This document shows, in pieces, positions 1 through 6,840 of a DNA stretch of 64,000 bases. The stretch is from positions 1,550,001 through 1,614,000 of the forward strand of contig NZ_JAQTHU010000001.1 of NCBI RefSeq assembly GCF_029433255.1. The letters run 5' to 3'. A program made the position numbers and the translations under genes. Source of the DNA: Lactobacillus sp. ESL0791 (GTDB taxonomy: Bacteria; Bacillota; Bacilli; Lactobacillales; Lactobacillaceae). The notes beneath the pieces were generated by a model, which saw nothing but the letters and a program-made list of their open reading frames with translations, did no database searches and was not told the origin of the DNA. Position 1 is the stretch's first letter; each line of letters starts with the position of its first letter.

Positions 1-993
1 AGGCTCAATTAATGCATTAGTATTTTCAATCTTTGGTAGACCTGCACTAAAAATCGTTGGCTGCCCCTTTTCATCCCATTCAATATGCAAAACTCGTGAC
101 CAGCTTGTATAAAGTTCAGCAATATTATCTGGAAGGTTTCCCTTTCGTCGTTCAGAAACATATGCTTTTGCACTTGCAAATTCCCAAACAGGTTTTTGCA
201 AAGCTAGCTTTTGATCTGCTTGATTATATAAAACCAGATTAAGCATTAATGTATCGAAAATACTCTTTCCACTGACCAAAACTGGATTTAACTTATAAAG
301 CCAACCTGGTGAAACAGAAAATTTTTCACTGGCATTAATCTTGGTCTTATCGGTTACCCCTGTATAATTTTGATAGGCAATTAGCCAGCGGACTAACTCA
401 TCAAGCTCTACTTCATTTTTATATTCACCAGATTTTGGTGCAAATAAAGCAGGCGAATTATTACTTTCCGAAATTTGCCTGTTAATCTGCTTAACCGTTA
501 CAACACCCGTTCCTTTGGCTACTGCCTTGTTTGCCGGCACCAAGCTGTCATATTCATCTTTAGTTACTTGATAAAAAGGATGTTTACCAAAAAAATCAAA
601 CCGATCCGAATAATATTCCAGATACTTAATCACCAAATCCGAAAATTGTCCTTTTTGGTATAACTCTTTCCACGTTAATAATGTATCTTCGGCCATATCC
701 TCTTCATCACAGTCTTCATCAAGTTCAGCATCAGATTGAAACTTATCTGTACCACCTGCCAGCCAATCATATAAGTTACCATCTGCATTAAAACGTGAAT
801 AAACCGTTGTTAAAATCGCCAATAATAAACGCATAATTGCTAAATCTTGTACACGCATTTCACCAGCTAATTGCCGATATCGATGTGCATTCTTAAACAA
901 GTCTATTAACGAAACTTTTAGCTCCTGATTAGTGTCAGCATCAATTACTTTGATCCAGGGATCAGTAGTCAAATTAAATTTTCTTTCAATCAT
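1..993 (-). CDS. casA: Cascade large subunit Cse1/CasA (Cas8e), N-terminal part, cut by window edge
   Basis: The minus-strand frame is open from ATG at 991-993 to the left edge, giving 331 visible residues without a stop. It starts MIERKFNLTTDPWIKV and contains YDWLAGGTDKFQ and FFGKHPFYQV, typical of the N-terminal half of Cse1/CasA. In type I-E systems this subunit recognises the PAM and recruits Cas3 to target DNA. The start is fixed by AAAGGAGG just upstream. The ATG lies inside the 3' end of cas3 (8-bp overlap), so the two genes are translationally linked. The rest of the cas operon (cse2, cas7, cas5, cas6e, cas1, cas2) would lie left of the window; that is expectation, not seen. Confidence 0.93.
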   Translation of the reverse strand, partial: MIERKFNLTTDPWIKVIDADTNQELKVSLIDLFKNAHRYRQLAGEMRVQDLAIMRLLLAILTTVYSRFNADGNLYDWLAGGTDKFQSDAELDEDCDEEDMAEDTLLTWKELYQKGQFSDLVIKYLEYYSDRFDFFGKHPFYQVTKDEYDSLVPANKAVAKGTGVVTVKQINRQISESNNSPALFAPKSGEYKNEVELDELVRWLIAYQNYTGVTDKTKINASEKFSVSPGWLYKLNPVLVSGKSIFDTLMLNLVLYNQADQKLALQKPVWEFASAKAYVSERRKGNLPDNIAELYTSWSRVLHIEWDEKGQPTIFSAGLPKIENTNALIEP

Positions 994-3733
994 GATCATC
1001 CTCCTTTGCATAACTTAAACCAAATTCCATAGAATATTGAATACGCCACTTTCCAATCTTTGCCGTAAGCTTATCATTTAAGGGAAGTACTAATACTCCT
1101 TTTAGCCAGATACTATTTTCCCATTTATTGTGATAAGGATTGGTTCTCTTTTCAAGTTCATCAATTATTTGTTCAACTGCTTTAGGAAATGCAGTTAACG
1201 CAGAAGGCAACCTGATTACTTGCTCGGCAATTTCATAATCTGCAACATCTTCTAATTTGCGTCCATCTAATAAAAAATCACCTTCAGCTGTATGCTTAAT
1301 TAACACTACCTCAATCGTTTCTTGAATATCACGAACCGCAGCACTTGCTTTTTGTTCATCTTTATCAACATTCGTCTGGCTACGATCAAGCCAGCCATGA
1401 ATTACTTTCTTTCCTGGTTTATTAATTTGGAACTGTTTAGCTTTACTCTCTTCAGTTTCAATATAATTGATAAAATCGGCTTTAGGAGCCATAATTTCTG
1501 GGACCTCAGAGTCAGTTTCAGAACAATAAACTTTTTGAACAAGATCAGAGATGTCATTAGGCAAATTAATGCTATCCTTTAAGAAATAATCCGTCTTCAT
1601 TAACAAATATTTATGATAAATACTTTGGTTAGCAGCGCCATAATCACCAAATTTGTTAACTCCCATGATAAATAACTGCGGTTTTTGCAACTCTTGGGGC
1701 CGTTTAATTTCATGACGGTGCAGTCGACCTGCACGCTGCAGAATCAAGTCCATCGGCGCAATATCTGTATAAAGAACATCAAAGTCGATATCAAGAGATT
1801 GCTCTAAGACCTGGGTACCAATTACAACCAATTTTTTAGGGCGCATACCACTTTTACCAATTGCTTGTTGCAATCTTTCTTCCTGCTTGGCCCGTTCTGG
1901 CGCAAGAAATGCGGAATGCAATATCATAAAGTCAACCCCCTCTCGTGCCACCAGTTCAGCAAGTTTTTGGGCACGTTTAACCGTATTTACAATTACCCCA
2001 GCAACTCCACCATCACTTATTTTGTTTAAAACATCAGCAATCAATTCTTCATCAGACAAATTTATCCGTTTCACCTGCAATTTTTTCCGTTTTTGGTCGC
2101 TATTGCCTGGAAAGTCAGAGACCTGCTTTAATTTACAGCCATCTAAAATACTCAATAATGGATATGCTTGATTATTTTCCCAATTTGTCGGTGCCTTGAA
2201 AATGTTTTTATATTTGATTCCATATTTTCCTTTTAAATACGCTTTAATTAATGATTCTCTTTTTTCTTTTGGCAGTGTCGCTGACAAAATTACAATGGGA
2301 ACATGATAAGCCCCTAGCCATTTAATGGCCTTATACAGATATTGACTCATGTAAGCATCATAAGCATGGACCTCATCAATTATGACTACTTTTCCGCTAA
2401 GCCCTATATGTTTTAAGAAGAGATGTTTCTGCTTAAGCGCCATTGAAAGCAAATTATCAATTGTTCCAATAGTAAACTTAGTTAAAATTGATTTTTTCCC
2501 AGAAAACCACGAATTAATTGTTACAGCTCCAGTGCTGTCAATATTTTCAGCATCGGGCAATTCTTTATATGCCTCATTAAATTCTGCTTTGCTATGCATC
2601 AACCTAACTGAAAACTTATCCTTTTGCTTGTCAGCTAGTTCTCCTATCCATTCATCAACACGTTTAAACATCGCATTGCTCGTAGCCTGCGTCGGTAATC
2701 CGATAAATACCCCATCTTCTCCGCAAGTATAAGCCAACTGCTCTGCTGCAACTAATGCGATCTCCGTTTTTCCTAACCCCATCGGTGCTTCAACAATGAT
2801 CATCTCTGGTTCAATTGTTTTACCAATTTCTCTGGTCATTACCTTTTGTACTGGACGAGCATTAAAGCCCCAACGTTCTTTGTACGGATCAGTCACTTCA
2901 GATATTTTCTGCGGTTCCCACTCACCGTTTAACGTCCAATTATTCATCGCTTTTTCGAAACGTTTTTGCATATCCAAGTCGTTCCATGACTCATCGATAC
3001 TAATTAATGGAAAAAGTTCTTTTCCATTTTTAGTACGCTCACTTGAAGCTAACCAGTCTGCCATAATAATCAAGCCTTCTAAAAGGACTGCTTCCGGTTG
3101 AGTTATAGTGGGAATTTCAGTAACATTGTGGTAACCTGATGTTGCTAAAGCATAATTAAATAATTCATGTTGCACCTGTACCCAAGGCTCTTTTAAAGCT
3201 TCATCATGATCACTTTGATAATAATTGACTGTATGAATATCTAAATCATCAATTGGAGACCCTGATTCAGGTTTCCCATGGTGCCCACCAATCAAAGCCG
3301 CAACCGTTTCTGGCACTTTGAAATTCAATAAAATTGCTTCACCAGCTTTATTATGAGGCGATGAAGAACGTGAAGCCAATTGCAGTTCGTCTAATTTAGA
3401 AAAGCCATTTCTAATTAGATTTTCAATTAATTGATCATCTAAAGACCTATCTCCAATATATGATTCCTTAGTTTGAAAAGCTGGGGTAGCCTTTCCTATA
3501 TCATGTGCAAATCCTAAAAATTTAATCAATTTATGAATCTCTGTACCAGATTCATCGGATAACCCCTGAGCTAAAAATTCTTGTTGTTCTTGACTTAACC
3601 ATTGATTGTACAGAAAATTGATAACGTTTCGCGTATCAGTTAAATGAGCAACTAATGGTAACCATAATTGTTGGCCGTCTTCAACATTTTTCTTACCCCA
3701 CAAAGTTAAACTTTTGTTAGATAAATTACTCAT
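986..3733 (-). CDS. cas3: CRISPR-associated helicase-nuclease Cas3 (type I-E)
   Basis: Cas3 is the helicase-nuclease that degrades DNA marked by Cascade. The 915-residue protein starts MSNLSNKSLTLWG. It has an N-terminal HD nuclease domain (H30, HD at about residues 77-78 in FAHDIGKATPAF, IGGHHGKPE near 148-155), then SF2 helicase motifs: Walker A APMGLGKT near 316-323, DEVHAYD, SATLP, GTQVLEQSLDID and QRAGRLHRH. Length and order fit a complete type I-E Cas3. The frame is open for 28 more codons upstream, but those codons overlap the predicted transcript start and the guide-RNA match, while AAAAGGAGGC lies 13 bases before the ATG at 3733. I therefore chose 3733. It overlaps casA by 8 bp. Confidence 0.95.
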   Translation of the reverse strand: MSNLSNKSLTLWGKKNVEDGQQLWLPLVAHLTDTRNVINFLYNQWLSQEQQEFLAQGLSDESGTEIHKLIKFLGFAHDIGKATPAFQTKESYIGDRSLDDQLIENLIRNGFSKLDELQLASRSSSPHNKAGEAILLNFKVPETVAALIGGHHGKPESGSPIDDLDIHTVNYYQSDHDEALKEPWVQVQHELFNYALATSGYHNVTEIPTITQPEAVLLEGLIIMADWLASSERTKNGKELFPLISIDESWNDLDMQKRFEKAMNNWTLNGEWEPQKISEVTDPYKERWGFNARPVQKVMTREIGKTIEPEMIIVEAPMGLGKTEIALVAAEQLAYTCGEDGVFIGLPTQATSNAMFKRVDEWIGELADKQKDKFSVRLMHSKAEFNEAYKELPDAENIDSTGAVTINSWFSGKKSILTKFTIGTIDNLLSMALKQKHLFLKHIGLSGKVVIIDEVHAYDAYMSQYLYKAIKWLGAYHVPIVILSATLPKEKRESLIKAYLKGKYGIKYKNIFKAPTNWENNQAYPLLSILDGCKLKQVSDFPGNSDQKRKKLQVKRINLSDEELIADVLNKISDGGVAGVIVNTVKRAQKLAELVAREGVDFMILHSAFLAPERAKQEERLQQAIGKSGMRPKKLVVIGTQVLEQSLDIDFDVLYTDIAPMDLILQRAGRLHRHEIKRPQELQKPQLFIMGVNKFGDYGAANQSIYHKYLLMKTDYFLKDSINLPNDISDLVQKVYCSETDSEVPEIMAPKADFINYIETEESKAKQFQINKPGKKVIHGWLDRSQTNVDKDEQKASAAVRDIQETIEVVLIKHTAEGDFLLDGRKLEDVADYEIAEQVIRLPSALTAFPKAVEQIIDELEKRTNPYHNKWENSIWLKGVLVLPLNDKLTAKIGKWRIQYSMEFGLSYAKEDDHD

Positions 3734-3764
3734 ATCATCTAATTTGCCTCCTTTTTTGTTTTTT

Positions 3765-3779
3765 GCTATTACATTGTTT
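3765..3779 (-). promoter_or_regulatory. Predicted target site of the crRNA-like RNA in the cas3 5' region
   Basis: On the minus strand this site reads AAA-C-AATGTAATAGC. The 11 bases AATGTAATAGC (3765-3775) are identical to positions 2-12 of the spacer at 4170-4190. The single base before them is the position that in type I-E guides corresponds to the PAM-derived last repeat base and does not pair. AAA (3777-3779 complement) occupies the PAM position; AA/AAA PAMs are known for type I-E systems of lactobacilli and streptococci. The site begins about 6 bases after the predicted cas3 transcription start, where bound Cascade would block transcription. Confidence 0.7.
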
Positions 3780-3788
3780 ACAAAAAGT

Positions 3789-3817
3789 ATTATGTAACAC
3801 AACAGACTATTTTGCAA
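3789..3817 (-). promoter_or_regulatory. Predicted cas3 promoter
   Basis: On the minus strand TTGCAA (3812-3817) and CATAAT (3789-3794) are separated by exactly 17 bases, a good sigma-A promoter. Transcription would start near 3782, about 49 bases before the cas3 ATG. The sequence AAGCGCTTGCA across the -35 has some likeness to a catabolite-response (cre) element but departs from the consensus at several positions, so I do not call one. Confidence 0.6.
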
Positions 3818-3909
3818 GCGCTTTTCTTTTAAATAACTTTATTATATTAAAATAAAATAGTAATTTGAAGTAAAACGATTAAGAATTATAAGCATTTTAT
3901 ACAAATTTT

Positions 3910-4106: not shown

Positions 4107-4135
4107 CTTGTTAGATTATGATTTATGATAAACTT

Positions 4136-4282
4136 GATTACGTATTCCTCATATCAATGAGGGTGATCCAAATGTAATAGCTAAAGGATCGTGTTCCCTA
4201 CTTTTGTGGGGTATTAATTTGTCTAAATGTCAAATGTTTTAAAGCAGATAAAAAGATGATTATTCCTTTATCTGCTTTTTTA
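4136..4282 (+). ncRNA. crRNA-like RNA: degenerate repeat, 21-base spacer, degenerate repeat, terminator
   Basis: Read on the plus strand, 4142-4169 aligns without gaps to the 28-base CRISPR repeat (about 19 of 28 identical). It keeps the whole 3' handle GTGATCC and a perfect new stem CCTCAT/ATGAGG in place of CCCCAC/GTGGGG. After a 21-base spacer (4170-4190), 4191-4218 is a second degenerate repeat (about 17 of 28) that keeps GTGTTCCC and a stem CCCTAC/GTGGGG but has lost the handle. This is the pattern expected if Cas6e processes the RNA into one guide: handle from the first repeat, 3' stem from the second. A terminator follows. The unit runs divergently from cas3 and opposite to the main array. 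The spacer's positions 2-12 match the cas3 5' region. It resembles Cas-regulating (CreR) or CreA-type crRNA-like guides. Confidence 0.8.
4241..4282 (+). terminator. Rho-independent terminator of the crRNA-like RNA
   Basis: AAAGCAGATAAA (4241-4252) pairs with TTTATCTGCTTT (4267-4278), followed by a T run to 4282. It ends plus-strand transcription right after the second degenerate repeat. The left side has only a weak T tract for minus-strand transcription. Confidence 0.75.
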
Positions 4283-4417
4283 TTATCTAAAACTTTTCCA
4301 TAAACAAAAAATTCCTATTACCAAAGGTAATAAGAACTTAGATTTTCTAGATCTTTAATCCACTAATCAATCTATCGTAAACAGCCAAAGCTTGAACCAT
4401 ACCTGACTCAGTATTCC

Positions 4418-6766
4418 GGATTACTCCCACATTTGCGCGGAACACATGATTGAAATGGCGAAGACGAACTCCTCAAAGGGATCACACCCCACACTCGTGG
4501 GGAACACGAACCGAACAACAATTTAATCGCTTGAAGCATAGGATCACCCCCACACTCGTGGGGAACACAAATCAAGCAACCAGGTATAAATCTGTTCCGG
4601 AGGATCACCCCCACACTCGTGGGGAACACAAATCAAGCAACCAGGTATAAATCTGTTCCGGAGGATCACCCCCACACTCGTGGGGAACACAAAAATAATC
4701 CGTTTGAGAACATGTCAAAGGGAGGATCACCCCCACACTCGTGGGGAACACTCATCAGTAAATTCTGTTCCGTGAACAAAAGCGGGATCACCCCCACACT
4801 CGTGGGGAACACGTATTAATATCTGAAATATCTTCCTTAAATGGAGGATCACCCCCACACTCGTGGGGAACACAAAATTGCGCCAATTATAACATCATAA
4901 GAATTAGGATCACCCCCACACTCGTGGGGAACACAAAATTGCGCCAATTATAACATCATAAGGATTAGGATCACCCCCACACTCGTGGGGAACACAACTA
5001 TTTCTATTAACCTCAGAAGTATAATTAAGGATCACCCCCACACTCGTGGGGAACACGGAAATTGGTGTATCAGAACAAGCTATTAGTCAGGATCACCCCC
5101 ACACTCGTGGGGAACACTTATTTGTTCCACACCATTGTCGTCGATGTAAGGGATCACCCCCACACTCGTGGGGAACACGGCACGGGACAGGAGCTTCCGG
5201 CCACGTTGGCAGGATCACCCCCACACTCGTGGGGAACACTTAACTAATTCAGTTCTATGGACGAAAAATAAAAGGATCACCCCCACACTCGTGGGGAACA
5301 CGGTGCCGCAATTACTGCTATGGGAACAAAATCAGGATCACCCCCACACTCGTGGGGAACACGGGATAACCATAATACTCAATTTGAAACATATAGGATC
5401 ACCCCCACACTCGTGGGGAACACATTGTATTAACCCATACGAACTGCCCTTCATTAGGATCACCCCCACACTCGTGGGGAACACATCTAAAAAATGCTGG
5501 ACGGAAAAGAAAGCTAAGGATCACCCCCACACTCGTGGGGAACACCACAGGCAGTTAAAGCTAAGCCTAATAGGGTAAGGATCACCCCCACACTCGTGGG
5601 GAACACTTTTCAAAAACAATTGGCAAAAACGTCGGGGCAGGATCACCCCCACACTCGTGGGGAACACTGGGCGACGTTGTCACCGACATTTTGCCAAGCG
5701 GGATCACCCCCACACTCGTGGGGAACACCAAAATCATGCTAAGTGAAGAATCAGCATTTAAGGATCACCCCCACACTCGTGGGGAACACACTGCAAGAAA
5801 GTATTAAAGGCTGATGAATACGGGATCACCCCCACACTCGTGGGGAACACCTCCTTTATATAATTTATAAGCTTCATAAATAAGGATCACCCCCACACTC
5901 GTGGGGAACACATTGTCAATTATTGCCTGGACACAGATCATGAGGGATCACCCCCACACTCGTGGGGAACACGAATGTAAGTGATATAAGTGAGGCTGTG
6001 ACTAAGGATCACCCCCACACTCGTGGGGAACACATATGCCAACGGTTAAAAGGTGACCACGGTTGAGGATCACCCCCACACTCGTGGGGAACACTGGATT
6101 GTTTTAAAATACCATTTCAGTTAATAGAGGATCACCCCCACACTCGTGGGGAACACTTCAATTTGAAAAGGTGAGCGCTGATTAGCATAGGATCACCCCC
6201 ACACTCGTGGGGAACACAAAAGACAAATATATTCCATTTTTAAAACATCAGGATCACCCCCACACTCGTGGGGAACACGCGCGTCGCGATCAGTTCTTGT
6301 AAGGTTAGCTAGGATCACCCCCACACTCGTGGGGAACACTTAATGCGTTAGGTATAGTAATCCCGGATGAAAGGATCACCCCCACACTCGTGGGGAACAC
6401 TGCTCATCAAGGTCCCTCAAGTCCCGCAGCCTAGGATCACCCCCACACTCGTGGGGAACACCGGGGCCTTTAAATAATGTTGATTGGTCAAAAAGGATCA
6501 CCCCCACACTCGTGGGGAACACAATGTATATATTAATATTAACACAATTAAATTAGGATCACCCCCACACTCGTGGGGAACACGCTTGTGAAGTCACAAA
6601 AATACTGAAAAGTTCAGGATCACCCCCACACTCGTGGGGAACACTGCTTGCTCCTTATCCGTGGATTGCACAAAATAGGATCACCCCCACACTCGTGGGG
6701 AACACTCTATACCCATTGATAATAAACTCATAATAATAGGATCACCCCCACACTCGTGGGGAACAC
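4418..6766 (-). CRISPR. Type I-E CRISPR array, 38 repeats plus one degenerate end repeat
   Basis: There are 38 copies of a 28-base repeat from 4480 to 6766 with mostly 33-base spacers (61-base period), plus a degenerate repeat at 4418-4445. On the plus strand the repeat begins GGATCACCCCC and ends GGGGAACAC; type I-E repeats of lactobacilli are transcribed in the reverse sense (GTGTTCCCC to GTGATCC), so the array runs on the minus strand toward cas3. Decayed repeats at the left end (4418, and 4480 with a small indel) mark the trailer; the leader is to the right. The base just before GGATCAC is almost always A or G, the PAM-adjacent bias seen in type I-E. Two spacers (4569-4601, 4630-4662) are identical and two (4874-4906, 4935-4967) differ by one base. 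Confidence 0.98.
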
Positions 6767-6840
6767 AGTAAAAGAATCCTATTACACCAATATTCCTAAA
6801 TATTAATTTTACCATTTTTCATTACTTTGTATACAAGAGC
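6767..6840 (-). promoter_or_regulatory. CRISPR leader and array promoter
   Basis: An AT-rich stretch next to the last unmutated repeat. On the minus strand TTGTAT (6831-6836) and an extended -10 TGGTAAAAT (6806-6814) are 19 bases apart, giving a start near 6799, about 33 bases before the first repeat. The 8-mer TGTAATAG of the crRNA-like spacer recurs here (6779-6786) but without an AA motif in front. Confidence 0.6.

Follow-up and report, generated by a model that had tools for sequence, protein, structure and literature searches.

The window, the whole 64,000-nt stretch of DNA that was analysed, carries the start of a type I-E CRISPR-Cas locus, with cas3 and a minus-strand CRISPR array separated by a two-repeat unit on the plus strand. 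The main components of the locus are the following:

986..3733, minus strand: cas3, which opens the I-E cas operon; the other cas genes lie left of the window
4418..6766, minus strand: main CRISPR array of 39 repeats, 37 of them exact and 2, at the far end, degenerate
L099 3416-4359, minus strand: a second CRISPR array of the genome, with 16 like repeats, located downstream of cas2

According to Pfam matches the operon is complete (Cas3, Cse1, Cse2, CT1975, Cas5, PF08798, Cas1 and Cas2), where we take CT1975 to be Cas7 and PF08798 to be Cas6e, and its Cas2 bears an exonuclease domain. The unit and the cas operon sit together on a 2.38-Mb contig of a 2.43-Mb genome, and the cas3 genes nearest to that of the window in genus and family searches were those of L. 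bombicola and Lactobacillus sp. ESL0246. Two pairs of adjacent duplicate spacers were observed in the main array (window positions 4569-4662 and 4874-4967), one pair being identical and the other 1 base apart. The spacers of the window array gave no match in 50,697 phage records, and the single Rfam match, which was sub-threshold and irrelevant, fell inside the array. The base after the exact repeat is T in 32 and C in 5 of the 37 copies in the window, and T or C in 217/226 cases for arrays lying within 88 cas3 upstream regions of relatives. As T or C follows every exact repeat in the window, the repeat can be read as 29 nt with a PAM-derived last base, which gives a handle of 8 bases and suggests AAY as the PAM; this assignment relies on the first base after the repeat, because no phage protospacer matched the window array.

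Between cas3 and the array we distinguished the following elements of the unit:

4124..4129, plus strand: candidate -10 box of a promoter belonging to the unit, TATGAT (5/6), 12 nt ahead of psiR1
4142..4169, plus strand: first degenerate repeat (psiR1), 19/28 to the array repeat, with a compensated 6-bp stem and intact handle
4171..4190, plus strand: 20-nt guide, AATGTAATAGCTAAAGGATC, whose positions 1-11 and 13-15 match the target
4191..4218, plus strand: second degenerate repeat (psiR2), 17/28 to the array repeat, stem kept, handle lost
4163..4211, plus strand: predicted mature RNA of 49 nt, with an 8-nt 5′ handle GTGATCCA, the 20-nt guide and a 21-nt 3′ hairpin
4241..4281, plus strand: intrinsic terminator of the unit, from fold and sequence

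A preliminary description had seen at 4136-4282 two degenerate repeats around a 21-base spacer, opposite in sense to the array and to cas3, and this arrangement was confirmed by a repeat-match scan of the window that left out array starts 4400-6780. The scan returned 4142 as the best repeat match outside the array on both strands; the 17/28 score of 4191 was tied with those of two unrelated sites (18880, plus strand; 40299, minus strand), so that psiR2 is distinctive solely by its place and stem. The other details of the description held as well: psiR1 keeps the handle GTGATCC in 7/7 bases, psiR2 in 0/7 and retains only the stem, and the psiR1 stem contains two pairs that are compensated relative to the array repeat. 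Over the first 21 bases, psiR1 agrees with the array repeat at 12/21 and psiR2 at 17/21 positions. Canonical I-E crRNAs are 61 nt long, and the position at which Cas6e cuts them would place the ends of the RNA from the window unit 49 nt apart. The terminator proposed for the end of the unit was present in the fold as a hairpin at 4241-4281, though a simple terminator scan did not list it. No plus-strand site passed a two-hexamer promoter scan of the region, which is AT-rich. The fold of the unit had a z of -3.7, and 0/200 shuffles were equally stable. Within 4163-4190, GGATC of the guide tail is complementary to GATCC of the handle, and their pairing would leave the seed in a loop; similar folds were noted in several other units.

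The guide is directed at the region in front of cas3, where the relevant elements are:

3756..3775, minus strand: target on the cas3 coding strand, AATGTAATAGCAAAAAACAA, with the seed at 3765-3775
3776..3778, minus strand: PAM AAC (AAY, as deduced from the array)
3789..3817, minus strand: candidate cas3 promoter TTGCAA-17-CATAAT, from the two-hexamer scan, with counterparts in relatives

The sequence AATGTAATAGC recurs at 3765-3775 on the cas3 coding strand, which is its sole 11-base match in the window besides itself. This match had been described as spacer positions 2-12 following AAA-N; the match stands, and the frame and PAM were corrected to guide positions 1-11 and AAC. In the corrected frame the guide starts at 4171 and matches at positions 1-11, mismatches at 12 and matches again at 13-15, giving 14 base pairs of 20. 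The pattern AAYAATGTNATAGC, which combines the AAY PAM with the seed and leaves position 6 open, has a single occurrence in the 2.43-Mb genome, at the cas3 site, vs. 0 occurrences of the reversed control pattern. The cas3 start follows 43 nt downstream of the target, and the cas3 ribosome site is located between them.

To follow the unit in relatives we used the 88 cas3 upstream regions (9 of them shorter than 1.5 kb) obtained from searches of 75 genus and 397 family genomes. A cas3 match of any length was found in 26/75 genus and 97/397 family genomes, many of the latter being merely helicase-like fragments; neither partial hits nor a distant full-length match (G097) entered the 88 regions. 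Units were present in 22/88 regions, 13/22 from the genus and 9/66 others (L002, L005-L009, L011, L014, L017-L019, L021, L022, L038, L066, L067, L074, L077, L090, L091, L095 and L096). This set is the output of a finder, with L011 and L014 added by eye and L096 taken from the finder plus a stricter automatic version. The latter, run on 112 merged regions, returned 33 rows that include alternative registers and some array ends, lost L005-L007 and detected no unit in the outside-family loci L182, L183, L185-L187, L189 and L191-L199. Named counterparts include those from Lactobacillus equicursoris (L022), Lactobacillus agrestimuris (L014), Lentilactobacillus rapi (L038), Lentilactobacillus parabuchneri (L067), Limosilactobacillus fastidiosus (L077), Lactiplantibacillus modestisalitolerans (L091) and Lactiplantibacillus plajomi (L096). 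The two regions with the closest cas3 (L003 and L004, 76%) had no unit within 1.5 kb. The spacer of L017 is common to L018 and L019, and that of L005 equals that of L006. The 19 distinct units fell into two classes of spacer size, 13 having 19-23 nt and 6 having 33-36 nt, with none between once three pairs with 25-31-nt spacers (L006 -1041, L044 -447, L066 -400) were treated as array ends. A short-unit pattern searched genus-wide gave 20 matches in 17/75 genomes vs. 9 for the reversed control; 5 were known units, 2 possible ones (G009, G051) and 13 lacked repeat letters by eye within the matched stretches. The additional short-spaced repeat pairs in L102 (G009) and L112 (G051) are remote from the cas3 start. 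A single-protein scan of genome contigs matched 15 stretches, 0 of which were confirmed, and the alignment query for relatives retained 80 named loci of 236 relatives.

One check suggested in the preliminary description was whether, in relatives retaining the unit, spacer and cas3 site change together. The outcome was positive: different spacers are accompanied by correspondingly different sites with an AAY PAM. For this we scored two sets of 22 rows. The AAY seed test (seed, positions 1-5 and 7-11) used the unit regions minus L006 plus L052, and the core-score test (positions 1-17 without 6 and 12, PAM AAN) had L006 in, L096 out and L052 in; L052, judged an array end, was thus present in both. 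Mismatches at 6, 12 and 18 had been forgiven in an earlier site search but not in the AAY seed test. The best AAY site upstream of cas3 scored 10/10 in 14/22 rows, 9/10 in 6 (L005, L007, L008, L009, L074, L014), 8/10 in 1 (L095) and 6/10 in 1 (L052). It lay at most 150 nt upstream of the cas3 match start, always on the cas3 coding strand, in 16/22 rows, at -203 in L066 and at -177, on the opposite strand, in L014. With 2000 shuffles for each row, the probability of reaching the observed score was 0.0005 for the window (score 10) and did not exceed 0.0015 in any of the 14 rows with a perfect seed; rows at 9/10 had values of 0.012-0.082, L095 had 0.065 and L052 had 0.885. In the AT-rich L005, L007 and L008 the single-unit values are weak (0.08, 0.02 and 0.08). 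The core score was 13 for the window and at least 10 in 20/22 rows. Scores of at least 10 were reached by 0.7% of swapped spacers (n = 454), 0.9% of shuffles (n = 880) and 0.3% of array spacers (n = 290), and the highest value among shuffles was 12.5.

The AAY seed test yielded no convincing cas3 site for L009, L077 and L095. The L077 guide (cas3 -944) finds its full seed, 10/10 with PAM AAT, immediately upstream of the first repeat of its own unit, and no other position in the 1.5 kb scores above 7/10; this guide is possibly self-limiting, matching its own promoter. In L009 (cas3 -680 and -523) a 34-nt spacer is found together with a partial site before a small hydrophobic ORF (~33 aa, by eye), possibly a CreA-like arrangement. 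Among the four genomes searched, the L009 seed had no perfect AAY site in its own genome G050 and one each, not relevant, in G004 and G182. The L095 seed, searched in G182, had two sites there.

Cascade leaves guide positions 6 and 12 unpaired. The 18 distinct spacers that score 9 or more in the seed match 6 times at position 6 and 8 times at position 12, vs. 16, 12 and 13 times at positions 13, 14 and 15. Thus 14/36 cells match at 6/12 vs. 41/54 at 13-15, none of these positions having played a part in site choice (Fisher P = 0.0008, somewhat optimistic, as close relatives entered separately). This pattern suggests readout by a machinery that passes over every sixth base. The earlier proposal of a crRNA-like guide aimed at the cas3 5′ region is therefore supported both by the guide/site co-variation and by mismatches at the positions that Cascade skips.

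Conservation was also seen in the RNA features of the units. Stem covariation gave 20 double-change cells for psiR1 (20 sequences; 0/500 shuffles) and 8 for psiR2 (19 sequences, 18 distinct, without the irregular L011, whose spacer length is uncertain; 0/500 shuffles), while for psiR1 the number of pairs with a double change (29/500 shuffles) and of further pair types (181/500) was not exceptional. A TATAAT-like box of at least 5/6, ending 4-16 nt before the unit, was present in 14/21 cases and perfect in 8, vs. 11.8% and 1.0%, respectively, at random positions of the same regions, a null that may be low since these positions include arrays and genes; close relatives were counted separately. 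In a subset of units including that of the window, the tail that is unpaired with DNA is predicted to fold back on handle or seed. Such foldback reached a tail-shuffle p of at most 0.1 in 8/19 units vs. 25/150 array spacers (of 226 available; Fisher P = 0.014, Mann-Whitney P = 0.07). We regard the spacer size classes and the foldback tails as leads.

The window target site lies 10 nt past the predicted TTGCAA-17-CATAAT box. Promoter predictions are weak in AT-rich DNA: the scan of the window region gave 4 sites, the candidate cas3 promoter among them, vs. a shuffle mean of 5.0. Two stronger predicted sites lie further upstream, and if these are used, Cascade would act as a roadblock. TTGCAA-17-TATATT is found before cas3 in L005, L007 and L008, 1-6 nt ahead of their sites; sites overlap predicted promoter boxes in L011, L017-L019 and L096, and the top-scoring box is away from the site in L021, L038, L074, L090 and L091. 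At 3812-3823 (minus strand), AAGCGCTTGCAA overlaps the candidate cas3 -35 box, and similar letters precede cas3 in L005, L007 and L008; it resembles a catabolite operator (CcpA, LacI-family). At 3730-3738 (minus strand), a two-codon frame ATG-ATA-TGA with the ribosome site AAAGGAGG overlaps the cas3 start and brings to mind AUG-AUA minigenes and the AUA-based CreT.

CreRs, Cas-regulating crRNA-like RNAs, were reportedly described by Liu et al. in Cell Host Microbe in 2023. Published accounts of CreRs of types I-B, I-E and V-A describe repression of cas genes through partial promoter complementarity (PMC13131331), relieved by crRNA abundance or anti-CRISPR proteins (PMC12737573). The window unit agrees with such RNAs in that its guide stands between CRISPR-repeat-like sequences at a CRISPR locus, is partially complementary to the predicted promoter region of the cognate cas genes next to a PAM (seed 10/10, AAC) and, judged from sequence, has the stems and handle expected for Cas6 processing. 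We consider it, with a probability of about 0.92, to be a CreR, a two-repeat minimal CRISPR with one guide that would repress cas3 and probably the operon, and the most likely purpose of the guide is to keep the cas genes low. Its anatomy, unique target and co-variation in relatives are read directly from the DNA; transcription, processing, binding, repression and derepression we infer.

In the proposed mechanism, the unit would be transcribed from its own promoter and Cas6e would cut the transcript at both degenerate repeats. The short guide would then load into Cascade and bring the complex to PAM AAC and the 11-nt seed just past the likely cas3 promoter. With 14 base pairs of the 20-nt guide, binding would be expected and cleavage by Cas3 probably not, so the outcome would be a transcriptional block on cas3 and, probably, on the rest of the operon. 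As Cascade is a product of the operon and common to the array crRNAs, this would form a negative feedback loop, which would relax once Cascade becomes scarce or occupied; repression of cas3, and its release as phage crRNAs consume Cascade, are suggested by analogy with CreR work covered in reviews. The shortness of the guide may likewise prevent cleavage here, although the limited pairing is the stronger reason. In Haloarcula I-B, spacers cut to 24 bp repress without interference (PMC10989794), and a paper on E. coli I-E reports smaller complexes with shortened crRNAs and itself notes no evidence of gene repression (PMC10551041).

Other explanations appear far less probable. The unit could be a CreA-type antitoxin whose guide mainly represses a toxin, RNA or peptide, to which cas3 is merely adjacent; CreA RNAs have the same anatomy, with a 20-nt guide in an I-F case (PMC10097628), and the ATG-ATA-TGA frame has a good ribosome site. 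Yet the target is followed by the cas3 ribosome site and by no visible toxin gene, ATGATATGA near the cas3 match start is confined to the window and absent from the other 87 of the 88 regions, and the best sites keep close to cas3 in most rows, all of which makes this explanation very improbable. Slightly less credit still is due to a decaying remnant of an inverted array, functionless and with an 11-base match by chance. It would account for degenerate repeats in AT-rich DNA, the more so as such repeats occur also at the far end of the array, but it leaves unexplained the intact handle and compensated stem, the upstream promoter box, a PAM and seed match that is unique in the genome, and relatives that show the same design with other guide/site pairs and the position-6/12 pattern.

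We find it hardest to credit that the RNA acts on cas3 mRNA or, like Racr, is a decoy keeping Cas6e or Cascade occupied. Guide and cas3 mRNA are of the same sense at the site and so cannot pair; and while a repeat-like RNA could conceivably compete with array crRNAs for Cas6e or Cascade, a decoy needs neither PAM, seed match nor second repeat, yet all are kept.

If the window unit is a CreR, type I-E systems of lactobacilli may restrain their cas genes by means of a self-encoded guide, a point of relevance to their activity in strains employed for editing or phage resistance. As an evolutionary read-out, the natural guide/site series shows which positions count when a guide represses without cleaving, and it opens the crRNA-competition model to tests in several species. 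Positions 1-5 and 7-11 are kept and 6 and 12 are free, in agreement with archaeal mutational work: H. hubeiense CreA can do without bases 6 and 12 but requires 1-5 and 7-11 (PMC8501985), while an I-F CreA is described as departing from a simple seed rule (PMC10097628). That Lactobacillaceae CreRs are weak competitors by design, of two sizes, the short one ~12 nt less, and some with foldback tails, is an unlikely idea. Two Cascade segments of six bases each would account for the ~12 nt, and an effector that is smaller and loads poorly would be sharply sensitive to competing array crRNAs.

The novelty implied for the guide class was too high, as CreR is an already described class; new are this member, its antisense placement and the family-wide series of guide/site pairs. 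Among the papers listed in our literature search, with long result lists cut at 20 and the 2023 CreR survey covered through reviews, none dealt with a Lactobacillus CreR. Natural guides for cas autorepression are known also from type II systems, where tracr-L works with the Cas9/tracrRNA machinery; the window unit uses Cascade and a two-repeat unit and lies beside Cas3 and the I-E gene set, so it is not a tracr-L. It shares repeat mimicry with Racr RNA anti-CRISPRs, but these are described as solitary repeats in viral genomes (PMC10651486), whereas the window has two repeats and a guide with a target, beside the cas operon on the 2.38-Mb contig. More is shared with CreA: two degenerate repeats with the first more diverged than the second (PMC9458426), the 1-5/7-11 seed in two archaeal cases and the short guide in the I-F case (PMC8501985, PMC9458426, PMC10097628). 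However, CreA targets a toxin promoter and the window guide the cas3 leader, with the target directly preceding cas3 and just a two-codon frame, no toxin gene, in view; we do not assign it to CreTA. With CreR the unit shares the features given for the class, namely a crRNA-like RNA at a CRISPR locus, a partial match to the cas promoter and generally no toxin (PMC13131331, PMC12737573), and its own particulars are those of a Lactobacillus I-E member placed antisense to cas3, with a 20-nt guide.
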